From positions 1-64,000 of the forward strand of contig JAHJEG010000015.1 of the NCBI GenBank assembly GCA_018825665.1: a DNA stretch of 64,000 nt. Reading direction: 5' to 3'. Source of the stretch: a bacterium (lineage in GTDB: Bacteria > Campylobacterota > Campylobacteria > Campylobacterales > Sulfurimonadaceae). Position numbers and translations under genes: made by a program. The notes beneath the pieces are model-generated. The model saw nothing but the letters and a program-made list of their open reading frames with translations, did no database searches and was not told the origin of the DNA. Shown here one piece after another: positions 22,739-57,775 of the stretch (the stretch's first letter is position 1; every line of letters begins with the position of its first letter).

Positions 22739-22835
22739 ACAAAGCCTCTTTTAAAAATTTCGTAATTATAGCAACGGCGGGCTTGTTTATTAATAAATGA
22801 GATGTATAATAGTATATATAACGGTAGGAGTTTAT

Positions 22836-24125
22836 ATGATAAAGTTTGTGTTATTATTTTTAACTTTTATAATGTTGGTCGGATGTGGTTCCAGCAGTTC
22901 GGGTGAAGTAGTGGAGGAAGAGGCTTTGCCGGAACCTCATGGAAAGTCTTCGATACCGATGTTGGTGCTTCTGGTGAGTTACAATGATATAAAGGTGAGT
23001 TCGTCTGAGAGTGTGTGGGGTGCAAAGCTTTTTGGCAAGAACCAGCATGAATTAAATCACTATTACATCGAGGTGAGTAATTCAAATTTTGAATTCTCCA
23101 GAGCAGCGGAAAATGACGGGGTGGCGGATGATGGCATTGTTTCCGTGGAACTGGACAAAAATCATCCCGATACCGATATCAACAGTGTGGACTTTGCCGC
23201 CAATGTCTATCCGGATTTAAAGGCGGCACTTGTGGCAGTGGATGCAGAGGTCGATTTTTCAAACTATGACGGGGATGCAAACGGGTATATAAGTCCTGAT
23301 GAGCTTTTACTTACATTTATTATTGCCGGATATGAGGATGCCTATGCCGGTTATCATGTCTCAAAAGGGATATGGGCGCATCAGTACTGCATGACCTCGG
23401 CTGCCAATGTCCCTGTCCTGGATGGGGTGGGTCTTATGGACTGTTATAACGAAGGCAACTTTGCTCTTTTTGGAGAAAGGCATGACAACACACCGTCAAG
23501 GACGCATGATGCAACCATAGGGATTATCGCACATGAGCTTGGACACTCAGCCTTCTCTCTTCCTGATCTTTATAATACAAGTGCAAGTACCGGAGGGATA
23601 GGTTATTTTGGTTTGATGGGTGCGGGAACCTGGTCTATTCAAAACTCAAGTGAGTACTACGGGAACACTCCTACGCATTTTAGTGCATGGAGCAAGCTTT
23701 ACAACGGATGGATCACCCCTGTTGAAGGACAGGGTTATCTCTCTTTGTTTGAAACATCTTCAGCTGATTATAACGTGCTGAAAATTCCTATTGACTCAAG
23801 CAGTTATTATCTTTTGGAAAACAGGAACAACAGCGGATATGACAAAGGTTTATACTCTTTGACAGGAGATTTTAACGGCGGAATGGCACTGTGGCATATC
23901 AATGAATCAAAACTTACAAATTATTATATTGCAAGTAACACAGTGAATGCAGATACAAACAACAAGGGTGTGGATTTGGTCGAAGCCGTATACGGGACAA
24001 TAGACTCAGACGGAAGTGGAGGGGATGAAAGTGCTCTTTTTTACTATGGGAACGTTGACTCCTTTGAAACACTTGTCTCAGATGTATCTGCCAGAGGTTC
24101 GCAGATGACTCTAAATATAAACTAA
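22836..24125 (+). CDS. M6-family metalloprotease lipoprotein
   Basis: 429 aa from ATG 22836, with AGGAG 5 nt upstream; an upstream ATG at 22797 would put the signal peptide out of place. The lipobox LVGC gives Cys17 as the acylation site. The zinc site is H233-E234-L-G-H237-S, followed by LPDLY and the FGLMGAGTWS Met-turn region of M6 (immune inhibitor A type) peptidases. A complete EF-hand-like loop, D145-x-D147-x-N149-x-Y151 to E156, suggests calcium binding. No M6-type propeptide precedes the catalytic domain; a likely one is encoded by the next gene. Confidence 0.88.
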   Translation: MIKFVLLFLTFIMLVGCGSSSSGEVVEEEALPEPHGKSSIPMLVLLVSYNDIKVSSSESVWGAKLFGKNQHELNHYYIEVSNSNFEFSRAAENDGVADDGIVSVELDKNHPDTDINSVDFAANVYPDLKAALVAVDAEVDFSNYDGDANGYISPDELLLTFIIAGYEDAYAGYHVSKGIWAHQYCMTSAANVPVLDGVGLMDCYNEGNFALFGERHDNTPSRTHDATIGIIAHELGHSAFSLPDLYNTSASTGGIGYFGLMGAGTWSIQNSSEYYGNTPTHFSAWSKLYNGWITPVEGQGYLSLFETSSADYNVLKIPIDSSSYYLLENRNNSGYDKGLYSLTGDFNGGMALWHINESKLTNYYIASNTVNADTNNKGVDLVEAVYGTIDSDGSGGDESALFYYGNVDSFETLVSDVSARGSQMTLNIN

Positions 24126-24544: not shown

Positions 24545-25315
24545 ATGAAGATTGATGAAATTGTACTTTTAAATAAGATTATTGATATTCAGTCCTGTAT
24601 CATTGCCGGGCATAGTTTCAAAGCTATTTTACGTAAAGAGACTGCATTTTTTAAAAAAGAAAGCGGAGCTGATATTATTGCGGTGTGTATAGCAAATGAA
24701 AATCAGATGGGTGTGGAGTTTATATTGGAAGAGAGAAGAGAGTTTATCTCTTTGCTGCGAAAACATAATCTTTTGCTCAAGCATATCGATCTTAATAAAT
24801 TTATGGAACAGTGTAACAAACACTATCTAAAACACAGGGAAAGTGTTCAGATAAAGAGTTTATATGAAATTTTCGAAGGAACTGCTTCCAAGAAAAAAAC
24901 AATTCTTTTTGAAAAAGAGATGAGTTTTAATCTTGCCCAGATATTTCCTATTCATAACAAAGAGAGAAAAAAAATAGGATTTGTGGTCTATTTTTCAACA
25001 AAAGAGACTCAGTTGCTGGAAAAAAAATTACCGCAGATCACTCAAGTTTTTGAAACTTTAATCAGCCCTTTTTATGATGAAAGATTACACCTTTTGCATG
25101 CAAAATGTATACAGGTGGACAGCAAGATGAGTCACCTGACGGAGAAAGAAAAAGAGATAGCAAGAAGTGTACTGCAAGGCAAAGCATACAAGCTTATCGC
25201 ATATGAGATGGATATAACGATCAATACCCTTAAAACGCATATGAAGAATATCTTTTCCAAATATGGTGTCAGTTCCAAAGCAGAGCTCTTTAATAAGCTC
25301 ATCGGAAATATTTAA
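24545..25315 (+). CDS. LuxR-type transcriptional regulator
   Basis: About 256 aa from ATG 24545 (TTG 24536 possible; no strong ribosome site for either). The C-terminal 60 residues are a GerE/LuxR helix-turn-helix (LTEKEKEIARSVLQGKAYK, INTLKTHMKNIFSKYGV). The N-terminal 190 residues are not a receiver domain (no Asp pocket) and match no sensor family I can name; a GAF-like fold is possible. It converges on the two Cyc2-like genes and is the only regulator in this locus, so it may control them. Confidence 0.82.
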   Translation: MKIDEIVLLNKIIDIQSCIIAGHSFKAILRKETAFFKKESGADIIAVCIANENQMGVEFILEERREFISLLRKHNLLLKHIDLNKFMEQCNKHYLKHRESVQIKSLYEIFEGTASKKKTILFEKEMSFNLAQIFPIHNKERKKIGFVVYFSTKETQLLEKKLPQITQVFETLISPFYDERLHLLHAKCIQVDSKMSHLTEKEKEIARSVLQGKAYKLIAYEMDITINTLKTHMKNIFSKYGVSSKAELFNKLIGNI

Positions 25316-25343
25316 GCGCTGTATGTATTACGCATCTCTGCCC

Positions 25344-26660
25344 CTAAAAGGCGAGAGTGGCAGAGAGGTAGAGGTCGTAATATGTTTTGATTGTGTCGAG
25401 CTTGGGCAGAGTATGGGAATACTCTAAATCTATAAGTATATTCTGGCGAAGAAGATAGTTAAAGCCAAGCGAATAAGAACTGAAGTCATAAGTTTTTATA
25501 AACTCTTTATTGGCAGCTGTTTCATAATTATTATCATAGAACAAATATGCAAGCTTTATCCCAAGAGGTGTTACAGGGTTTACCTGAAACTCAAGCGATG
25601 CCGCATTATTGTCTGTTGTCTGCAGATTGGTGCTTAGAAGCAGATTTGAAGGCTCTACGTCTACTATGTTCTTCATCACTATATTTAGGGTCGTCATACT
25701 CGGCATGCCGGCTATATCCCCCGTGGCTTCGAGATCAAAACCGTAAGCTTCTTTGTGGATATTAATAAGGTTTGCCCCGCTGGTAATGAGTCCTCCATCA
25801 AGGCTTTGATCGCTTGCTTTTACATCTCCGTTGATCCCATAGGCTCCGAGCATAAAGTTCCATTGTCCGATTGTCTGATTATAGGCAATTCTGCCAAAGG
25901 GAATCATACTTCTTCCTGCATCAATACCCTCATTATTTTGAGAAGGGACAGTGATACCCACGGTTGCAAAGAGTGTATCATCCCCGTAGTATATCTGCAG
26001 ACCTGTTGCCGGGCCACGTGCTATGCCTGTAGCCTGAGCCGCATTTGTCATATTTGCATTTTCAAATTGTCTAAGAGGCGCATTCAAACCCGTATTGTAA
26101 TTTTCCATCCCGGCAAATGTACCGTTGATCTGAGTGGAAGATAGGGAGATACCCGTAAATCCGTTGAATGCAGGATAAGCGACTACCGCTTTTCCTCCAA
26201 AAACCACATCGTTTTCTTTTGAAGGATCGCCATTTAAAGATATGATACCGCCGACATTATCAGCAAAACGTCCTCCAAAATAGATGCCGGAGCCCTCTAA
26301 AACACGAAGCTCACCACGTTGAGCTCCTACGATATCCGTACTATTGACATCCTGAGGCTGAGAAGTTTTATTGTAGTTTGCTTTTAAAACAGCGGATACA
26401 TTGAGAACGGGCGGCAGGCCAAGAGCGATTTCGCTTCCCTCGATTAACGGTTTTGTCTCAGTCGGATCTGCATAAAGGGTGTAGCCCGATAGAGCAAAGT
26501 GTCGCCCTTCACTATTGAGTTTAGGCATATTCTGTGTGTGACAAGAGATACAGGTCTTTCCGGTCTGGCGCGCAAATCCAGGTAAAGCACTCGCAGATTC
26601 CGGAATCATAAAAAGTAGGGCACTTGAAAGTAAAAGTAAGTTTTTATTTAATTTTTTCAT
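25344..26660 (-). CDS. Cyc2-like fused cytochrome c-porin (downstream copy)
   Basis: 438 aa. A signal peptide ends near Ala25, then LPGFARQTG and one haem site C37-x-x-C40-H41, LNSEGRHFALSGY, and about 370 residues of alternating beta-strand pattern ending in LYLSATLAF, a typical barrel C-terminus. The F(A/S)RQTGxxCxxCH start followed by an outer-membrane barrel is the architecture of Cyc2, the outer-membrane Fe(II)-oxidising cytochrome of iron oxidisers, and the length fits. It lies 12 nt after its paralogue. Fe(II) as substrate is inference; the gene may serve another extracellular donor or acceptor. Confidence 0.78.
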   Translation of the reverse strand: MKKLNKNLLLLSSALLFMIPESASALPGFARQTGKTCISCHTQNMPKLNSEGRHFALSGYTLYADPTETKPLIEGSEIALGLPPVLNVSAVLKANYNKTSQPQDVNSTDIVGAQRGELRVLEGSGIYFGGRFADNVGGIISLNGDPSKENDVVFGGKAVVAYPAFNGFTGISLSSTQINGTFAGMENYNTGLNAPLRQFENANMTNAAQATGIARGPATGLQIYYGDDTLFATVGITVPSQNNEGIDAGRSMIPFGRIAYNQTIGQWNFMLGAYGINGDVKASDQSLDGGLITSGANLINIHKEAYGFDLEATGDIAGMPSMTTLNIVMKNIVDVEPSNLLLSTNLQTTDNNAASLEFQVNPVTPLGIKLAYLFYDNNYETAANKEFIKTYDFSSYSLGFNYLLRQNILIDLEYSHTLPKLDTIKTYYDLYLSATLAF

Positions 26661-26672
26661 TGGATACTCCTT

Positions 26673-28019
26673 TTAAAATGAGATTGTTAAAACTGACAAA
26701 ATATCACCGTAATCAGCTATATTTTCTTTGGTGGGTCTAACCATGGAATACTCCATAGTAAACTTTACATTTTGACGGAAAGAATAGTCAAATCCCAAGG
26801 TGAAAGCCCTTTTGTCCTTGACATCAATCTTGTCAGGTTCAAAAATATGCAAGCCCTTATCATCCAGCTCTAAATAAGAGAACTTAAGACCCAGCGAAGA
26901 GACAGGATAGAGCTCAAAAGAAATGGAATATGCTTTTGTGTGGGCATCCTCAGGTTCACCTAAAACGTCAATTATAGGATCTCCCATTAAATAAGGATTG
27001 TCCAGGCTGGTTTTATTCTTAAGCACGGCATTCATGGTAAGCTGTGTATACATGTCAAGCATTGTGCCTTCGAGTTGGAGGTCCAGACCGTAGGCTTCCT
27101 TTTTGATTTCAACAAGTGCTCTTGGAATATAACCCGATATGGAAGGGTCAAAGCTTGTATTGCTGGCTTTTGTCTTTCCGCTTATACCGTAGGCACCAAG
27201 GATAAGCGTCAGATCGCCAAGAGGCTGTTCGTATGCAAGACGGGAAAACATAATCATAGAGGCTCTGATATCTATGCCGTCAGGATTGTGTACGGGTACG
27301 TAGGCTCCAAAGGTAGCGAAAATATTTTGCCCTGCGTAAAAGAGTTGCAGTCCGGTTGCTGCTCCGGTTCCAAGATCCGCAGCTTGGGCGGCATTTGTAA
27401 GCTTATGGTTTTCAAACTGACGAAGCGGTTTGTAAAGACCTGTATTGTAGGTTTCCATACCGGTAAAAGGTCCATACGTATCCGTGGAAAAAATACTAAG
27501 ACCGGAATATCCTTCTCCTGTTTCAAAAGAGGCAATCGCTTTGGCTCCGATTATAGCTTTGCCCTGTTTCTCGCGAACCTCGATAAGCGTTCCTACATTG
27601 TCTGCGACTTTACCCGCTAGATTGATTGTGGAAGTTTTAAATATTTCATAAATCCCCCTGTTGCTCTCAACCAGATCCCCGTCTGCCGTATAAACTATTT
27701 TTCCCTTGCCGTTGACTTCATTATATGATTTATCATACCTTGCTTTAAGCATTAAGGACATGTTTAAAGTCATAGGCATGCCAAGCTTGAGTTCCTCGCC
27801 GACAATTAGGGACTGAGAACCATCCTCCGTGCTCATGGAATAAGCAGTACGGGCAAAATTCCGCCCGAAGCCATTGAGCTGTGTCTGACTTTGTGCATGG
27901 CACATCATACAATCAAGCCCGGTTTGTCTTGAAAAACCGGGTACAGCACGAGCATTTTCTAAAAAACCAAATAAGATTAGAAAACAAGAAAACAAAAAAA
28001 TATGATTTGCATGTTTCAT
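26673..28019 (-). CDS. Cyc2-like fused cytochrome c-porin (upstream copy)
   Basis: 448 aa from ATG 28019, with AAGGGG 5 nt upstream; an earlier ATG at 28037 would place that site inside the gene. Signal peptide, then VPGFSRQTG, haem site C37-x-x-C40-H41 (same residue numbers as the paralogue), LNGFGRNFARTAY, and a beta-barrel ending LSVLTISF. The two proteins share many blocks (for example MxxYNTGLxxPLRQFEN, NAAQAxxxxxGxATGLQ) and arose by duplication. First gene of a two-gene operon reading away from the cytochrome c gene. Confidence 0.78.
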   Translation of the reverse strand: MKHANHIFLFSCFLILFGFLENARAVPGFSRQTGLDCMMCHAQSQTQLNGFGRNFARTAYSMSTEDGSQSLIVGEELKLGMPMTLNMSLMLKARYDKSYNEVNGKGKIVYTADGDLVESNRGIYEIFKTSTINLAGKVADNVGTLIEVREKQGKAIIGAKAIASFETGEGYSGLSIFSTDTYGPFTGMETYNTGLYKPLRQFENHKLTNAAQAADLGTGAATGLQLFYAGQNIFATFGAYVPVHNPDGIDIRASMIMFSRLAYEQPLGDLTLILGAYGISGKTKASNTSFDPSISGYIPRALVEIKKEAYGLDLQLEGTMLDMYTQLTMNAVLKNKTSLDNPYLMGDPIIDVLGEPEDAHTKAYSISFELYPVSSLGLKFSYLELDDKGLHIFEPDKIDVKDKRAFTLGFDYSFRQNVKFTMEYSMVRPTKENIADYGDILSVLTISF

Positions 28020-28052
28020 AATGACCCCTTTCACCATCTTCTATAAGGCTTT

Positions 28053-28058
28053 ATTATA
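28053..28058 (-). promoter_or_regulatory. Candidate -10 element for the Cyc2-like operon
   Basis: TATAAT on the minus strand (ATTATA on +), preceded by GTG, about 33 nt upstream of ATG 28019. Confidence 0.5.
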
Positions 28059-28091
28059 CACTATAAAATATAAAAATGAATCACACAAAGG

Positions 28092-28110
28092 GGTTAATAT
28101 ATAATTAACC
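28092..28110. promoter_or_regulatory. Palindromic operator candidate between divergent cytochrome genes
   Basis: GGTTAAT-ATATA-ATTAACC is a perfect 7-bp inverted repeat with a 5-bp spacer. It lies between the candidate -10 boxes of the Cyc2-like operon (28053-28058) and the cytochrome c gene (28130-28135), placed to control both. It is not the TTAAC-N4-GTTAA site of the Campylobacter NssR type. The binding protein is unknown. Confidence 0.5.
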
Positions 28111-28129
28111 TTAATAAATTATTTTTAAT

Positions 28130-28135
28130 TATAAT
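28130..28135 (+). promoter_or_regulatory. Candidate -10 element for the cytochrome c gene
   Basis: TATAAT in T-rich DNA 47 nt before the ATG at 28183. Confidence 0.5.
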
Positions 28136-28182
28136 TTAAGTGAAGCTATTCTAAACTTTTTTAAAGTACAAAGGTTGACAAG

Positions 28183-28482
28183 ATGAAAAGATTTATCGCA
28201 TTATTATTTTTAAGCAGTTTGGCTTTGATGGCCTTTGATGGCGACAAGGCATATAAAAATTGTATCATGTGTCATGGTAAAACAGGTGAAAAGGTGGCGC
28301 TGAGCTCTTCTCCGAAACTTAACACCTTAGCTGAGCAGGATCTGCAAAACAAGATACAGGCTATCTTGAACGGCTCAAGCGGGATGTCAAAAAAATACCT
28401 TAGCATGCACAAGGCAAAACTCAAAGGTGTTGAAGAGGCTGATGCAGCAGCTTTTGCGGCGTATATTTTGAACCTAAAATAG
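28183..28482 (+). CDS. Periplasmic monohaem cytochrome c (c553 type)
   Basis: 99 aa with a signal peptide (about 1-17) and one haem site C27-x-x-C30-H31 (NCIMCHGKTG). The C-terminus AAAFAAYILNLK is the usual closing helix of small class I cytochromes; a Met in the MSKKYLSMHK region may be the second haem ligand. It reads away from the Cyc2-like operon and could carry electrons between an outer-membrane cytochrome and the respiratory chain, as Cyc1-type carriers do. AAAGG precedes the ATG. Confidence 0.9.
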   Translation: MKRFIALLFLSSLALMAFDGDKAYKNCIMCHGKTGEKVALSSSPKLNTLAEQDLQNKIQAILNGSSGMSKKYLSMHKAKLKGVEEADAAAFAAYILNLK

Positions 28483-28529
28483 TTGGGGGGGCGGTATTTT
28501 CTGCTAACACTTCGCTAATACTTCTTGCA

Positions 28530-28535
28530 TATAAT
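28530..28535 (+). promoter_or_regulatory. Candidate -10 element for the DUF2202 gene
   Basis: TATAAT within TTGCATATAATT, about 26 nt before ATG 28561, suggesting that the DUF2202 gene has its own promoter. Confidence 0.5.
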
Positions 28536-28560
28536 TTTCTATCTTAAAAACAGAGGTTAT

Positions 28561-29148
28561 ATGATGAGATCAGAGACTACACAGAATAAGCGTAGAAACT
28601 TTATTAAAATAATTGGGGCAGGTGCCATCATTACTGCCACGTCTGCATTCGCGGCTCGCGGCGGAAAAACCAAAACCACTACGACGGCAGAGTTGAGCGA
28701 AGAGCAAAAAGATACGCTTTTTTTCATATTTCAGGAAGAAAAAGTGGCGAGGGATGTCTACATCACACTCGGCAAGCTCTATCCCGATGAGTCTACATTT
28801 GCAAATATCCAGCTTTCAGAACAAGAACACATACTCTCAGCCCAGGTGCTTTGTGAGCGTTACGGAATTGACACTTCGAGTGTAAATCTGTCACAGGATG
28901 ATGACTACGTTGGACAGTTTGAGTTGTTGAGTATGCAGGAATTATACAATCAATGTATCGAACTAGGGCAGGTTTCTTTGCTTGATGGGCTGAAAGTGGG
29001 GCGTCTTATCGAAGTTACGGATATAGATGATCTTGAAAAAGCTGCAGAGGGGATGCCGTCTGATGTTGTAAATACCTACGAGAACTTAAAAGAGGGAAGT
29101 CTAAACCACTTGGACGCTTTTGAAAAAGCGATAGCAAGAGAAGAATAA
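28561..29148 (+). CDS. Tat-exported DUF2202 (ferritin-like) protein
   Basis: 195 aa from ATG 28561 (ATG 28564 equally possible; AGAGG at 28552-28556). The N-terminus has a twin-arginine signal, RRNFIKIIGAG, then a hydrophobic stretch ending AFAA, so it is exported folded, often a sign of a metal cofactor. The body has the DUF2202 ferritin-like pattern with Glu-rich helices (FQEEKVARDVYITLGKLY, SEQEHILSAQ). It may bind iron or another metal in the periplasm; no activity is established for the family. It sits beside the Cyc2-like locus. Confidence 0.85.
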   Translation: MMRSETTQNKRRNFIKIIGAGAIITATSAFAARGGKTKTTTTAELSEEQKDTLFFIFQEEKVARDVYITLGKLYPDESTFANIQLSEQEHILSAQVLCERYGIDTSSVNLSQDDDYVGQFELLSMQELYNQCIELGQVSLLDGLKVGRLIEVTDIDDLEKAAEGMPSDVVNTYENLKEGSLNHLDAFEKAIAREE

Positions 29149-29171: not shown

Positions 29172-29588
29172 ATGCTAAAAATTGATGAGAAGACGCAAGA
29201 GAGTCTTACAGGGGCTCTCTTCTCCTATTATGAGAATATAAGACGCGGCAATCTTCAGGTACTTTCTGCTCTTATGAGCGAAGAGTCTTATTTTATTACG
29301 CTTGAGTCCTTTGGATTCAGGCATGTGTTTAAGGAGAGTGCTTTTAAAGAACTCCTCAATAATATCGGGAATGACGAAGCGTCTTTGAAAAAAGTTGAGA
29401 CTGTTATTTCGGATGATTTGAAAAAAGAATCAAGAGAACATACGATAGAAGTTGTCTCATTTGAGCCAAAAGCCCCCGAACGGATTACTCTGCACTACAA
29501 AGAGGACGGACATCCCAAAAAACTTTATTTTTCATTTTCGGATGGCATGTGGAAGATAGATTATAAGGCCGGAAGAGAAAAACTCTAG
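29172..29588 (+). CDS. Hypothetical protein, NTF2-like pattern
   Basis: 138 aa with no signal peptide. Alternating helices and a C-terminal curved-sheet pattern (ITLHYKEDGHPKKLYFSF, GMWKIDY) resemble SnoaL/NTF2-like small proteins, but no diagnostic motif is visible. It follows DUF2202 by 23 nt, probably on the same transcript. It contains one copy of the dispersed 10-mer (Gly-Met-Trp near the C-terminus). Confidence 0.65.
   Translation: MLKIDEKTQESLTGALFSYYENIRRGNLQVLSALMSEESYFITLESFGFRHVFKESAFKELLNNIGNDEASLKKVETVISDDLKKESREHTIEVVSFEPKAPERITLHYKEDGHPKKLYFSFSDGMWKIDYKAGREKL
29544..29552 (-). repeat. TCCACATGCC dispersed motif, copy 9
   Basis: GGCATGTGGAAGA on the + strand; encodes Gly-Met-Trp in the NTF2-like protein. 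Confidence 0.9.
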
Positions 29589-50992: not shown

Positions 50993-53026
50993 GTGAGTAA
51001 AGTCTATTTTTCTACTTGGAATGGGGAGCTGATCAATAATGTCGGCAAACCCGAAGAAGAGTGGGAAGAATCAGCATATAACCTACCGGCACAATATGAT
51101 GATCACCGTGATTCCAAAGCCTTTATAGGCTGGGACGGTGTTTCATTGTTTAATGCAGATGTTGATGTAATCCGTTTAGCTATGGAATATGCTGCACAAT
51201 ATCAAGAGTACTCTGAGGCATGTGGAAGATGTGCACCCGGTCGTTGGGGTGGACGAATTTTATATGACCAACTAGATAAGATAGCTCGCGGTGAAGGTAA
51301 TGTGCAAGATTTGGATCACTTGAAAGAGATTGGCAAAAGTATGCAAGTTACTTCAAAATGTGAAATCGGCAAAACCGTTCCCAATCCTATATTGGATTTG
51401 ATGACACATTTCGAAGATGAGTTTATGGCTTGCATCAATGAGCAAAAACCATCAAAGCACTATAATGATTCTATCGGATATATTGCAAAGATTACGGCTC
51501 CATGTACGGATGCGTGTCCTGCACATGTAGATATACCGGGCTATATAGAGGGCGTAAGAGATTTAAGATTTGATGATTCACTTGAAGCTACCCGTCAGAC
51601 TATGCCTCTGGCACATGTTTGCGGACGCGTTTGTCCTCACCCGTGTGAAGATGCATGCCGCCGTACAAACCTGGATGAACCTATTTCAATTATGGCGCTC
51701 AAGCGTCTTGGTGCAGACTGGGAAACCGATCATGGTTTTGACTTTTTTCATCCAATGGAGAAAAAACCTGATACAGGCAAAAAAGTAGCTATAGTCGGAG
51801 CTGGTCCTGCGGGTCTGACTACGGCATACTATTTGGCAGCCGATGGTGTCGCTGTGGATGTTTATGAAGAATTGCCTGTTCTTGGAGGGGAAGTAACCGT
51901 CGGTGTACCTGAATATCGTATGCCGTGGGATAAATATCTCCAGGATATTGAGTGTGTCAGAGATATGGGTGTAAACTTCATAATGAATCATAAAGTATCT
52001 GCTGATGATATGAGAAGATTTGAAAAAGAGTACGATGCTACGATGATCGCATCTGGGACCAGAATCTCCAAAAAAGTATATTGTGACAATGAAGACCCTT
52101 CAATCACAGGTTACTGGGGTGCTATTGATTTTCTTGACCGTGTAAATCTTTATGAAAAATTTGACATTAAGCTTACAGAAGCTCAAAAAAAAGAGTATGC
52201 GATAGACGCCGATTATGTTGATTTGACCGGAAAAACAGTTGCATGTGTAGGGGGTGGATTTACCTCTATGGACGTTGTTCGCTGCTCTATCCGTGCGGGT
52301 GCCAAAAAAGTGGTTATGATCTATCGCCGTGATGAAAAAACTATCATACGCAATACTACCTATGAAGAGTATCATGAAGCGGTGGAAGAGGGCGTAGAAT
52401 TTTATTTTCACTCTGCCGTTGCCGAGATGAAAGATGAAGAGGGTGTGCTTAAGTCACTGATTATAGACAAGTTTGAGCTTGTTCCGGACCCAGACGGCGG
52501 ACGCCCGCAGTTAGTAAAAATTGAGGGTGAGTCTTATGAGATGGAAGTGGATTATTTAATTCCTGCAGTATCTCAAAGTGCAGATCTGAAATTTTTGCCA
52601 GAAGAGTGGGAGATAGAGAAAACCTCCTGGGCGACTATAAAGACAAACGGCAAAGACTATATGACATCACGCAATGGTATTTTTGCTTCAGGTGACTGTG
52701 AATACGGACCGATGACAATCGTAAATGCAGTTGGACAGGCAAAACGCGGTGCCTCTGTTATGAGCAGATATGTTCAGACCGGGGAAATCACCCTAACTGA
52801 TGATGAGATTATGGAAGACCATCTTCGTAAACTTCGCGTTTATGATAAGAAAGAAAAAGTAACAGGATGGTTGCCTGGATTGCCAAGACAGCACAGTATG
52901 GTTCTTGAAGCTGATGAGCGTAAATATAACAACAAAGAAGTAAACCTGGGCTTTACACAGGAAGAAGCTTTAAGTGAAGCTGAGCGTTGTATGCGTTGTT
53001 ACTATATTGCAATGATAGCTACATAG
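50993..53026 (+). CDS. NuoF C-terminal-like domain fused to GltD-like FAD oxidoreductase
   Basis: 677 aa from GTG 50993. Residues about 70-145 resemble the C-terminal iron-sulfur domain of NuoF (C77-G-R-C80-A-P-G83 and C123), but the third cluster Cys is replaced by Gly83, and the FMN/NADH-binding part of NuoF is absent. From about 165 on it is GltD-like: cysteines 171, 175, 210, 214, 218 and 222 for two [4Fe-4S] clusters, FAD site GAGPAG (269-274), a second dinucleotide motif VACVGGGFTSMD, and FASGDCEYGP. It probably replaces NuoF as the electron entry of complex I; the donor (NAD(P)H, ferredoxin or flavodoxin) cannot be read from sequence. Confidence 0.88.
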   Translation: MSKVYFSTWNGELINNVGKPEEEWEESAYNLPAQYDDHRDSKAFIGWDGVSLFNADVDVIRLAMEYAAQYQEYSEACGRCAPGRWGGRILYDQLDKIARGEGNVQDLDHLKEIGKSMQVTSKCEIGKTVPNPILDLMTHFEDEFMACINEQKPSKHYNDSIGYIAKITAPCTDACPAHVDIPGYIEGVRDLRFDDSLEATRQTMPLAHVCGRVCPHPCEDACRRTNLDEPISIMALKRLGADWETDHGFDFFHPMEKKPDTGKKVAIVGAGPAGLTTAYYLAADGVAVDVYEELPVLGGEVTVGVPEYRMPWDKYLQDIECVRDMGVNFIMNHKVSADDMRRFEKEYDATMIASGTRISKKVYCDNEDPSITGYWGAIDFLDRVNLYEKFDIKLTEAQKKEYAIDADYVDLTGKTVACVGGGFTSMDVVRCSIRAGAKKVVMIYRRDEKTIIRNTTYEEYHEAVEEGVEFYFHSAVAEMKDEEGVLKSLIIDKFELVPDPDGGRPQLVKIEGESYEMEVDYLIPAVSQSADLKFLPEEWEIEKTSWATIKTNGKDYMTSRNGIFASGDCEYGPMTIVNAVGQAKRGASVMSRYVQTGEITLTDDEIMEDHLRKLRVYDKKEKVTGWLPGLPRQHSMVLEADERKYNNKEVNLGFTQEEALSEAERCMRCYYIAMIAT

Positions 53027-53037
53027 GAGGTATGAAT

Positions 53038-55290
53038 ATGGATAAAATGATTAATTTTACAATTGACGGTATCTCTGTAGAAGCTAAGAAGGGTGAGTCG
53101 ATTTTAACCGTAGCCCGTAAAAATGATATTTACATACCGACTATGTGTTATATCTCCAAGACTACGCCGTGTGCTTCATGCCGTATGTGTGTAGTTGAAG
53201 CAAAAGATGTAGAGGGGTTTGTACTTTCGTGTAATACACCGCCGACAGAGGGGATAGAGATTACGACAAACTCGGCCGAACTTGAAAATGAAAGAACAAA
53301 CATCATGAAGCTCTATGATGTAAACCATCCCTTGGAGTGTGGTGTTTGTGATAAGTCAGGCGAATGTGACCTACAAAACAAAACATTGGAGTTTGGAGTA
53401 TCTCAACAAAACTTCAGTGCACGTGAGCAGCACCGTAAAATAGAGAACTGGGGACTTATCAACTATGACCCGACTTTATGTATTATGTGTGAGAAATGTG
53501 TTCACGTATGTAATGAGGTTATAGGTGACGATGCTATCGATGTTAAATTTGGAGGATACAGTTCAACAATTATTCCTAAAAACAATGATACTCTTGACTG
53601 TACCTATTGTGGAGAATGTATTGCAGTCTGCCCTGTTGGAGCACTTGTAAGCTCAAACTTCCAGTACTCTGCAAATGCGTGGGAACTAACACGTGTACCG
53701 GCAACATGTGCACACTGTTCCGGCGGTTGTTCTTTGGAGTATGAAACAAGACACCTTGGCATAAACGGCGGAGATTCTATATTGAGAGTCAAAAACAACT
53801 TTGAATATACATCATTATGCGGAGCAGGACGTTTTGGTTTTGACTTTTCCAATAATGTACTCAATAAAGATGAAGCAGCCTTTCGCAAGGCTGTTGAAGC
53901 AGTCAAAAATGCTAAAGCAATTCGTTTTTCTTCTATGATTACAAACGAAGAAGCACATATTTTAGAATTGTTGAAAGACAAACTCGACATTAAATTATTT
54001 AATGAAGATGCAAGAAAGTTTAAAGAGTTTATGAGCGCTTACAGTTCTGTAAGTGCCAAAAAACATCACAGCGGTTCATTGGATGCAGTCAAACAGTGCG
54101 ATGCCGCAGTTGTTATAGGCTCTAGAATAGCTACTGATAATCCTGCCCTGAGATACGCTTTGACAACTGCATCTAAACATAATGGTGCTAAAATACTCTA
54201 TGCGCATCCTGTAGAAGATGCTCTGATGCAAAATACGGTGACACAGTTTATTAAGTATGAAGTCGGTACGGAAGAGGGTGTGATTGCATTGTTTGCAAAT
54301 GCGATTTTAAAAGACCTTGACCTGTCTGAGGATGAGCGTGCGTTTTTTGATGAGCTTGATTTAGGATATCTTGAAGCTGAGACAAATGTCGGTGATGATG
54401 AATTGGCTTTGATGATAAAATCATTTAATAGAGCTGCCAAACGTGTTCTTATCGTCGGAAATGATCTGATAAGTCACGAACGTTCGTCTAATATTGCCAA
54501 GCTTGCGGCAATGATAGAAAAATATACTGACTTTTCTATCATAATCGTTCCAAATGAAGTAAATACTTTAGGGGTGTCTTTGATCTGTAACTTAGACAAA
54601 GATGAAGAAATCTCTAATGTTGTCGGCTATAACGCGAAGGGTGATTTTGTAATCTCCTCTTTGGCCGGAGCTGATTTGGCTGTCCCGGCACTCAACCAGC
54701 AAGAGGGCACGTTTGTAAGTATTGACAATAAGGTTCTTCCTACAAATGTGGCACTTTCTTTCAAGGGATATACGCTAAACGATATCGCTGCCGCACACGG
54801 CATAGTTAAAGAAACTACAGTTGATTATACTAAAGAGCTAAACACCGAAGCAGGTTTTAAAAATATCGACTTTGATTCTCTGGAAAACTTTTTATCAGCG
54901 CACGGGGATGATGTCAGAGGATATTTACTTGATGAAGTTGAATGTGAATCCAACGGAAAACTTGAGAGCGTAAGTGAATTGCCTGAGTTTAACGGCACGG
55001 TAATCTATCATTCAAATCCTGTTTTGCAGTTTAATGCGTATACCAATATAACGAAGCAATTGGAAAAAGATACTTCGCTAAGAGGTTCTGCCCAGTTTGC
55101 AGCTGCTGCAAAAATTTCTGATGGAGATGAAGTTGAGATTAGTTTCGGCAAAAGATCTATAAACAGAAAATTTAAGCTTGATAGTGAATTAAAAGGTACT
55201 ATTGCATTAAACCCTACTTTTGATGATGTGTCTGATGCCAGCAGATATAAATTTGAAAAATCCAAAATAGTGAGAGTAATACATGAGTAA
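53038..55290 (+). CDS. nuoG: Complex I subunit G, first copy
   Basis: 750 aa from ATG 53038 (AGGAGG 7 nt upstream; ATG 53032 is only 1 nt from it). An N-terminal [2Fe-2S] domain (C residues in TMCYISKTTPCASCRMC), the His-Cys cluster HPLECGVCDKSGECDLQ, two ferredoxin-type clusters (CIMCEKCVHVCNEV, CTYCGECIAVCPVG), then a molybdopterin-oxidoreductase-like domain with its own cluster site (CAHCSGGC, N7-like). It carries electrons from the input module toward NuoI and NuoB. A second copy follows directly, overlapping by 8 bases. Confidence 0.93.
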   Translation: MDKMINFTIDGISVEAKKGESILTVARKNDIYIPTMCYISKTTPCASCRMCVVEAKDVEGFVLSCNTPPTEGIEITTNSAELENERTNIMKLYDVNHPLECGVCDKSGECDLQNKTLEFGVSQQNFSAREQHRKIENWGLINYDPTLCIMCEKCVHVCNEVIGDDAIDVKFGGYSSTIIPKNNDTLDCTYCGECIAVCPVGALVSSNFQYSANAWELTRVPATCAHCSGGCSLEYETRHLGINGGDSILRVKNNFEYTSLCGAGRFGFDFSNNVLNKDEAAFRKAVEAVKNAKAIRFSSMITNEEAHILELLKDKLDIKLFNEDARKFKEFMSAYSSVSAKKHHSGSLDAVKQCDAAVVIGSRIATDNPALRYALTTASKHNGAKILYAHPVEDALMQNTVTQFIKYEVGTEEGVIALFANAILKDLDLSEDERAFFDELDLGYLEAETNVGDDELALMIKSFNRAAKRVLIVGNDLISHERSSNIAKLAAMIEKYTDFSIIIVPNEVNTLGVSLICNLDKDEEISNVVGYNAKGDFVISSLAGADLAVPALNQQEGTFVSIDNKVLPTNVALSFKGYTLNDIAAAHGIVKETTVDYTKELNTEAGFKNIDFDSLENFLSAHGDDVRGYLLDEVECESNGKLESVSELPEFNGTVIYHSNPVLQFNAYTNITKQLEKDTSLRGSAQFAAAAKISDGDEVEISFGKRSINRKFKLDSELKGTIALNPTFDDVSDASRYKFEKSKIVRVIHE

Positions 55291-57775
55291 AATTACTATA
55301 AATATTGACGGAAAAGAAGTACAGACGCAAGAGGGCGAGTATATCTTAAATGCTGCCCGTGCGAATGATATTTTTATTCCTGCTATATGTTATTTAACAA
55401 GATGTAGTCCTACTTTAGCTTGTCGTATATGTCTTGTTGAGGCTGATGGAAAACAAGTGTATGCTTGTAATGCCAAAGCCAAAGACGGGATGAATATTAC
55501 AACATCAACCGAGACTATTGAAGCTGAAAAACGCGCAATCATGGAAGTCTATGATGTAAATCACCCACTTCAATGCGGTGTATGTGATCAATCAGGTGAA
55601 TGTGAGTTGCAGAACTATACACTTGAAATAGGTGTAGATTCTCAAAGTTACGCAATCAAAGATGTAGACAGATCCTCTAAAGACTGGGGTCATATACATT
55701 ATGATGCCGGCTTATGTATTGTGTGTGAAAGATGTGTAACGGTATGTAAGGATATGATTGGTGACAACTCTCTTAAAACTGTTGCTCGCGGTGCCGATGC
55801 TCTGGATGAACAGTATAAAGAAAGTATGCCAAAAGATGCGTACAGCATGTGGAACAAACTTAACAAATCCGTAATCGGTCTTACAAGCGGCGGCGAAATG
55901 CTTGACTGTACATCTTGTGGTGAGTGTGCGGCAGTGTGTCCTGTTGGAGCTTTGGTCGATACTGATTTTATGTATAAGTCAAATGCGTGGGAGCTTAAAC
56001 AGGTTCCGGCTACCTGCGGACATTGTTCTGCAGGCTGTCAGATATCTTATGATATCAAGCATACAAGTATTGAAAATACTGAAGATAAAATCTATCGTGT
56101 TATGAATGAATGGAACTATGTATCTCTTTGCGGTGCCGGCCGTTACGGATATGATTATGAGAATAAAGTTCAGGCGAAAGATGAAGCAGCATTTGCAAGA
56201 GCCGTAGAAGCCTTTAAAAAAGCTGATACTGTAGAGTTTACTTCTACAATTACGAATGAAGAAGCTTATATCCTCCAGTCTTTAAAAGAAAAACTTGGAC
56301 TGAAACTGGTGAACAAAGAAGCTAAGGCATTTCAAACTTTCTTGAAAGATTATAGTCAAATCAGCGGAACGGCACTTTACGGCAGCGACCTTAAAGTTGT
56401 TCATAACTCTAACTTCGTCGTCTCCGTCGGTTCTGCCTTAAAGAGCGACAATCCGAATGCAAGATACGCACTAAATAACTCTATGACGGTGAACAAGGGT
56501 GCGGGTATATATTTTCATCCTGTAAGTGACCCTGTCATAGATGGTATGGGCAAAAGTATTATGAGTGTGAACCATGCGCCTTTACAAGAGGAAGCAGTTT
56601 TGTATCTGATACTGGATCTGTTTGCCGACAAATCAAAACTTCCGTCTTCCGTGGTAGATTATTTGGCATCGTTCCATAAAGAAAAAACCATAACTGTTGA
56701 AGAGACTATCAAAGAAAAGGTAGTTGAAATAGTAAAAGAGATGAAAGTCAATGAAGAAACGGGTGAAGAAGAAGAGGTTGAAGTAGAAAAGTCGAAGATG
56801 GTTCCAAAGAAGGTATCCAAAGAAGTGCAGATAGATGAAAACACTCTTTTGGCTCTCGTTGGTGCTGATGCTAAATTTGAAGAAAATTTAGAAAAAAATC
56901 TGAAGAAAAAAGATGCATTTGCTTTAATGGTCGGACCTGACCTGTACACACATCCAAGATCTGGAAATTTAGCTCGTCTGGTAGCTTTGGTAGAAAAATA
57001 TTCTGATTTTGAAGTGACTATGATTCCGCCATTGACAAACTCGCTGGGCGTTGCGCTTATTTGTGAACTTGACGATGAAAAAGGCTCCTATACTGTAGGA
57101 TACAATACAAAAGCGGACTTTACTTTATCCGCTTTGGGTAATGGTGAGTGTGATCTGGATATGCCTGCTATGAATCAGCAGGAAGGGACGTTAACAAGTA
57201 TAAACAAGCGTGTTAATCCAACCAATGCTGCTCTGGCTTATAAAGGGTATGAGCTAAACGATATCGCTAATGCACTTGGAATGAGTGCAGCGAATGTTAT
57301 CGACTATACGGCTGCTTTACCAACTTCTGCAGGATTTAAATCAGAAGCATTCGATAATCTCCCCAACCATTATGAAAATGACGGTACGGAGGTCAGAGGG
57401 TATCTTTTAGAGAATAAAGAAGTTGAAGTAAGCTCAGACGAAAGTGTAGAACCTTTCCTTGCCGACACACTTGAAGGTGCGGTTATCTATCTTGCAAATC
57501 CTGTAAGACAGTTCACTGAATTTACCAATAAAACTACGGGACTTGATGAAATTGCCGGTGTTTACATGAGTGAAGCATATTTAAGTAAGTCTGAATTAAA
57601 CGGCGGAGACAGTGTAAAAATCAAGAATGACAACGGTGAACTTGTTGCTACTGTTATCAGTGACAATAAAATTGCCGGAGATATAGTTCTTCTTCCAACA
57701 TTTGATTCTAAATTAAACTCAGAAGCTCTGTTTAGCTCATATCGCTTTGCAACAGCTTCGATACAAAAGGTGTAA
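55283..57775 (+). CDS. nuoG: Complex I subunit G, second copy
   Basis: 830 aa, a paralogue of the preceding protein with all cluster motifs retained: TRCSPTLACRIC, HPLQCGVCDQSGECELQ, CIVCERCVTVCKDM, CTSCGECAAVCPVG, CGHCSAGC. It is longer because of inserts, one of about 40 residues after the fourth cluster-binding pair and a highly charged Glu/Lys/Val stretch at about 472-520. Two complete nuoG genes in one operon is unusual; either both are in the complex or each serves a different donor. Confidence 0.92.
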   Translation: MSKITINIDGKEVQTQEGEYILNAARANDIFIPAICYLTRCSPTLACRICLVEADGKQVYACNAKAKDGMNITTSTETIEAEKRAIMEVYDVNHPLQCGVCDQSGECELQNYTLEIGVDSQSYAIKDVDRSSKDWGHIHYDAGLCIVCERCVTVCKDMIGDNSLKTVARGADALDEQYKESMPKDAYSMWNKLNKSVIGLTSGGEMLDCTSCGECAAVCPVGALVDTDFMYKSNAWELKQVPATCGHCSAGCQISYDIKHTSIENTEDKIYRVMNEWNYVSLCGAGRYGYDYENKVQAKDEAAFARAVEAFKKADTVEFTSTITNEEAYILQSLKEKLGLKLVNKEAKAFQTFLKDYSQISGTALYGSDLKVVHNSNFVVSVGSALKSDNPNARYALNNSMTVNKGAGIYFHPVSDPVIDGMGKSIMSVNHAPLQEEAVLYLILDLFADKSKLPSSVVDYLASFHKEKTITVEETIKEKVVEIVKEMKVNEETGEEEEVEVEKSKMVPKKVSKEVQIDENTLLALVGADAKFEENLEKNLKKKDAFALMVGPDLYTHPRSGNLARLVALVEKYSDFEVTMIPPLTNSLGVALICELDDEKGSYTVGYNTKADFTLSALGNGECDLDMPAMNQQEGTLTSINKRVNPTNAALAYKGYELNDIANALGMSAANVIDYTAALPTSAGFKSEAFDNLPNHYENDGTEVRGYLLENKEVEVSSDESVEPFLADTLEGAVIYLANPVRQFTEFTNKTTGLDEIAGVYMSEAYLSKSELNGGDSVKIKNDNGELVATVISDNKIAGDIVLLPTFDSKLNSEALFSSYRFATASIQKV

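Follow-up and report, generated by a model that had tools for sequence, protein, structure and literature searches.

The closest described counterparts of the genes discussed here are the Cyc2 proteins of Cluster 1, known from Mariprofundus, Gallionellaceae and Chlorobium (PMC7029218, PMC8406198), for which Gallionellaceae, Chlorobium and Zetaproteobacteria serve as marker taxa (PMC7029218). Such proteins combine a signal peptide, one CxxCH in a PxFxRQT context, a 16-strand barrel related to OprP/OprO, acidic positions in loop 3 and a length above 365 aa; Cyc2-PV1 has been modelled with 16 strands on OprO/OprP templates (PMC8406198). All of these features recur, the barrel as a prediction, in two adjacent genes, here called A and B, in a 64,000-nt stretch of DNA (the window), contig C22 of a genome of 2.34 Mb labelled G000, whose host genus is almost certainly Sulfurimonas, within Campylobacterota. 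Unlike Cluster 1 Cyc2, to which they are about 21-28% identical, A and B fall in a sister clade, have Ala for the GRxFK lysine (B also being without FAR and PxL), and come with a regulator, a candidate operator and a cytochrome c cassette of their own. Together they probably make up an outer-membrane module, under regulation, that takes up electrons from a soluble donor, predicted most likely to be Fe(II).

Cyc2 has already been reported from Campylobacterota, nested in Zetaproteobacteria (PMC12442345), so its presence in the phylum, to which the initial annotation of this DNA drew attention, is not new. The proteins of that report share phylum and superfamily with A and B, but Sulfurimonas loci L015-L018 and L087, which may differ from the paper's sequences, fall in the Cluster 1 clade and A and B do not. 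Single-copy Campylobacterota proteins (L013, L014, L030, L033 and L034) belong to the same supported clade as A and B and share the loop-3 motif TGLYxPxRQFEN; unlike A and B, they retain the lysine and FARQM, and their loci are without a LuxR regulator or a tandem. MtoAB and PioAB embody the same idea of an outer-membrane electron conduit, but do so with two proteins, decahaem and 26 strands (PMC8406198); the one decahaem family searched had no member above cut-off in the G000 genome. Vents and submerged steel are habitats where Sulfurimonas is abundant (PMC10066037, PMC10608953), and the Sulfurimonas genomes examined in two studies were stated to be without Cyc2 or iron-oxidation genes (PMC10066037, PMC11411561). 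The open-licence literature yielded no report of the A/B lineage, cassette or operator, all three of which, as far as we have looked, appear to be new.

Two Cyc2-type genes in one operon

A (25344..26660, minus strand, 438 aa) and B (26673..28037, minus strand, 454 aa) are both recognized as Cyc2-type fused monohaem cytochrome-porins by motif, structural model and trees, and A also by column analysis. They lie 12 bp apart in the operon order B to A, are 39-40% identical to one another, and are the only two genes of this type in the genome. Orthologues of B start at a position matching an internal ATG, 28019, which is therefore probably the start of B as well; counted from there, the haem motif of B falls at residues 37-41, as does that of A. 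The motif regions read ALPGFARQTGKTCISCH in A and AVPGFSRQTGLDCMMCH in B. Convergent with A, 28 bp away, is a one-component regulator of LuxR type with a GerE helix-turn-helix (24545..25315 from ATG, or from TTG 24536; plus strand; Pfam PF00196, E 1.2e-12), and divergent from B is the gene for a periplasmic monohaem cytochrome c of 99 aa (28183..28482, plus strand; PF00034, E 8.2e-9). The initial annotation had described just this arrangement, with two adjacent paralogues bearing a signal peptide, P-G-F-(A/S)-R-Q-T and CxxCH at residues 37-41, a divergent cytochrome c and one LuxR-type regulator, and it is borne out throughout (for B, from start 28019).

Both proteins have a single N-terminal CXXCH after a signal peptide (the latter judged by eye) and exceed the 365 aa set as the minimum for Cyc2 (PMC8406198). 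Upstream of CXXCH, A reads ALPGFARQT, in agreement with the Cyc2 pattern AXPXFAR[Q/K][T/Y], and other A orthologues have FSRQT, FTRQT or FSSQT; the PXL position four residues past CXXCH is PKL in A and TQL in B. Pfam and NCBIfam hold no model matching A or B.

AlphaFold2 models built from 39-row alignments give 16 strands in each protein, with a mean predicted local distance difference test (pLDDT) of 78.2 for A and 79.8 for B; this agrees with the 16-strand outer-membrane barrel expected of Cyc2 (PMC8406198) and with the full barrel proposed earlier. Foldseek matched A and B to OprO, OmpF, PorB and further 16-strand porins, and VIA-align, applied to B only, returned Z of about 20-22 with OprB, OprP and OprO as top matches. 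A PDB sequence search using a Cyc2 profile found no relative, whereas the fold search did. The haem would be positioned in the barrel mouth. Residue columns were scored in an alignment of 107 sequences, including 60 Cluster 1-type and 12 A/B-lineage rows. The third loop, between strands 5 and 6 (residues 177-217 of A), carries acidic E186 and E200 at positions common to Cluster 1 (48/60 and 46/60 rows), and these two may be candidate metal-contact residues.

Placement in the Cyc2 superfamily

A and B are homologous to Cyc2 of named iron-oxidiser genera and have orthologues at 55-68% identity in four further species; their features are therefore not due to chance. In a first tree of 86 Cyc2-like proteins (LG+C20), A, B, their orthologues and two single proteins from outside the genus (L028 and L029) form a clade with support of 100/97. 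This clade joins L013 and others, a Campylobacterota group, and the proteobacterial L055-L057 in a larger clade (98/94). The sister of the latter is a 50-protein clade (100/97) comprising Gallionella, Sideroxydans, Ferrigenium, Chlorobiaceae, one zetaproteobacterium, Nitrospirota and a second Campylobacterota group (L015-L018). Outside both clades (100/100) lie Acidithiobacillus, Caballeronia, Methylocystis and Ideonella plasmid relatives together with a third Campylobacterota group. A second tree, with long branches removed and a different alignment, has the same topology (99/96 and 100/99). Both trees were built without the characterised Cluster 2/3 references, A. ferrooxidans Cyc2 and Leptospirillum Cyt572, and on this sampling A and B are, judged by sequence, members of the Cyc2 superfamily and not of Cluster 1.

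The initial annotation's identification as Cyc2 stands as regards superfamily and fused layout; A and B lie outside the clade that contains the Cyc2 of neutrophilic iron oxidisers. As contrary outcome of a Cyc2 phylogeny it had named a position outside every Cyc2 cluster together with clear kinship to porins that do not transfer electrons. This outcome did not arise: A and B are placed outside Cluster 1, but their nearest relatives are haem-bearing Cyc2-like proteins.

Genome scans used a profile from a narrower alignment, the broad alignment having no conserved stretch, and a search of viral contigs gave no match. Fused cytochrome-porins of Cyc2-like type form no fewer than three additional, distinct groups in Campylobacterota (L015-L018, L019, L035-L040, L020 and L041), and some of these occur in Sulfurimonas. 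The idea that tandem Cyc2 genes are unique was considered and rejected, as neighbouring duplicates of Cluster 1 type occur at L075:7929-10373, L095:23-2891 and L116:6205-9347, in a gammaproteobacterial and in Gallionella metagenome-assembled genomes.

A cassette kept in five species

Tandem, divergent cytochrome c, regulator and a 138-aa protein (29172..29588, plus strand) occur together in five species (G000, G032, G016, G373 and G397), and in the window the cassette extends beyond 28482, up to 29588. In every one of the five tandem genomes an orthologue of the cytochrome c stands at this place, as does a cytochrome c in G222. Three tandem genomes share flanking genes, including an 875-aa gene resembling valS; the flanks in the window and in G032 differ from those of the other three, the five cassettes lying at different genomic sites, and it follows from these differing flanks that the block has moved.

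Beside the tandem in four of the five species, at 77-82% identity, is a DUF2202 protein, which in the window carries a Tat-like (twin-arginine translocation) signal, RRNFIKIIGAGA (28525..29148, plus strand; PF09968, E 6e-29), and is homologous to the solved MJ0754 (PDB 3q4o, E 2.7e-22); it is absent from the G032 cassette. The 138-aa protein adjoins DUF2202 in each of the 10 phylum genomes where the 138-aa protein occurs, genomes without the tandem among them. A dedication of this pair to Cyc2 was therefore rejected, the pair also occurring without Cyc2; the two form an independent module.

A shared candidate operator and a possible surface partner

A homologue of the regulator stands next to the tandem block in each of the five species. 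Across the phylum, 5 of 397 genomes contain the regulator (E up to 1e-12), namely four tandem genomes and G270, in which a single A/B-type gene lies about 3 kb from it. Six of the 397 genomes have A/B-type genes, and these include every genome with the regulator (Fisher p 7e-11, kinship not corrected).

The intergenic regions between B and the cytochrome c gene contain, in five species, a common imperfect palindrome, TCACCCTTTTGTGTGATT, with 0-2 mismatches and the consensus TCACCC-N4-GKGTGA; the candidate operator in the window is TAACCCCTTTGTGTGATT (28079..28096, minus strand, with a 16-bp core at 28081-28096). Only three places in the G000 genome match the 17-base pattern at two mismatches or fewer: the B promoter, a site (C30:50160-50176) upstream of a choice-of-anchor O lipoprotein gene (NF040591; C30:50591-52831; loci L173 and L179), and one intragenic position. 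The same pairing of B-promoter and lipoprotein-promoter operators occurs in G016, G032 and G373. In G270, the stretch separating the regulator from the lipoprotein gene contains TCACCCGAATGGGTGA, a palindrome close to perfect, which stands just before the Cyc2-type gene; that Cyc2-type gene, single in G270, is without an operator site of its own. The operator is thus found at the choice-of-anchor O promoter in five genomes (G000, G016, G032, G373 and G270); G397 has no convincing operator before this gene.

A TATAAT-like hexamer starts exactly 22 nt past the 16-bp core in 10 of 10 promoters, exact in the five B promoters and with one mismatch in the other five. The total mismatch of 5 compares with 19 for the best of 5000 shuffles, which take related promoters as independent. 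Such spacing would suit an activator overlapping the -35 position, and the LuxR-type regulator presumably binds TCACCC-N4-GKGTGA. One regulon is implied by the common operator at the B and lipoprotein promoters. Among 298 phylum genomes, 3 gave a match for the lipoprotein (G000, G016 and G270), to which a protein search adds G032, G373 and G397. A sequence search returned no solved relative over its main part, and plasmid matches fell mostly on its immunoglobulin (Ig)-like part; it is likely to be an unstudied surface partner of the module.

Probable electron uptake and its alternatives

Extracellular electron uptake, as put forward in the initial annotation, remains the most economical reading of the fused layout, superfamily membership and predicted barrel. 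The N-terminal haem peptide of A and B would plug the periplasmic mouth of the 16-strand barrel; a soluble reduced donor, most likely Fe2+, would enter the pore and pass one electron to the haem; and the divergently encoded periplasmic cytochrome c would carry the electron towards a cbb3 oxidase (CcoO- and CcoP-like genes, named by eye from sequence, are adjacent in the same genome). The regulator may activate the module through TCACCC-N4-GKGTGA just upstream of the promoter, and may likewise activate the choice-of-anchor O lipoprotein encoded elsewhere. Going by family, Fe(II) is the first-candidate donor, with Mn(II) or another donor possible, and electrons presumably move inward.

Several observations weigh against this reading. 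A and B lie outside the Cluster 1 clade, in sister position (98/94 and 99/96). The GRxFK lysine is retained by 58 of the 60 Cluster 1-type rows and by every row of four other groups, but each of the 12 A/B-lineage rows has Ala or, in one case, Ser instead. B reads AVPGFSRQT and so departs from AXPXFAR[Q/K][T/Y]; 7 of the 60 Cluster 1-type rows likewise have Ser at that FAR position, and B orthologues of other species carry FAR. The PxL proline is gone from B and all B orthologues, and the GYTM methionine from most A proteins. The haem peptide is modelled at low confidence, mostly in A (pLDDT 41-55), most genomes of the genus are without the module, and electron flow could in principle be outward. 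The motif that the initial annotation took to define Cyc2 does not on its own make A and B Fe(II) oxidases: they lie outside the clade with the Cyc2 of neutrophilic iron oxidisers, B departs from two published motif positions, and neither protein has the near-universal lysine.

Among the alternatives, the one that survives best, although we consider it unlikely, is the same machine serving another donor, be it Mn(II), a reduced sulfur or organic compound, another cell or a surface, and not dissolved Fe(II). Cyc2 is also a candidate in Mn(II) lithotrophy (PMC9040806), and confident inference of Fe(II) has been restricted to relatives of characterised proteins (PMC8406198). The lineage-specific changes near the haem could tune potential or substrate, and the retention of two divergent paralogues side by side suggests two substrates or potentials. 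What speaks for Fe(II) instead is that the acidic residues of loop 3 are common to Cluster 1, and no positive sign of another donor was seen.

It is considerably less probable that A and B act with the DUF2202 protein in redox sensing, or in metal or oxidant detoxification, at the outer membrane without energy gain. High conservation of the Tat-type neighbour (77-82%), a dedicated one-component regulator and a large surface lipoprotein in the regulon would fit such a role, but DUF2202 and its partner occur without the tandem, DUF2202 is missing from the G032 cassette, and a periplasmic cytochrome c encoded divergently speaks for electron transfer. That A and B are ordinary porins carrying a degenerate haem remnant is very improbable despite their general-porin fold and the low confidence of the modelled haem peptide, given an intact CxxCH and the retention of both paralogues, alongside a cytochrome c partner, in five species. 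CxxCH is intact throughout the collected sequences, of which it was a collection condition, so that the tandem kept in five species is the stronger point against degeneration.

The electron-uptake reading extends, more tentatively, to a distinct kind of Cyc2: we regard as possible, though still doubtful, a system in which two specialised paralogues in one operon, a dedicated LuxR-type switch and a co-induced extracellular lipoprotein partner let an oxidiser of sulfur and hydrogen switch on electron uptake from Fe(II) or a different external donor. If some Sulfurimonas have a patchily distributed, regulated module of Cyc2 type, this would alter the electron donors assumed at vents and on steel, and the operator and regulator offer a handle on the timing of expression and a short gene list for joint testing.

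Neighbouring genes

In four relatives, A is adjoined by a small secreted low-complexity protein, rich in Q, D and R and with a Gly-rich tail (L137:8177-8548, L140:6796-7173 and L139:10319-10741), which is not found beside A in the window. The window's cassette is adjoined by a lipoprotein with an M6-type metalloprotease domain (22797-24125), not seen at the relatives' loci. Farther along (52987-57775), an apparent complex I cluster contains two large genes in succession, of 767 and 830 aa, which resemble each other at their starts and are, by eye, NuoG-like.

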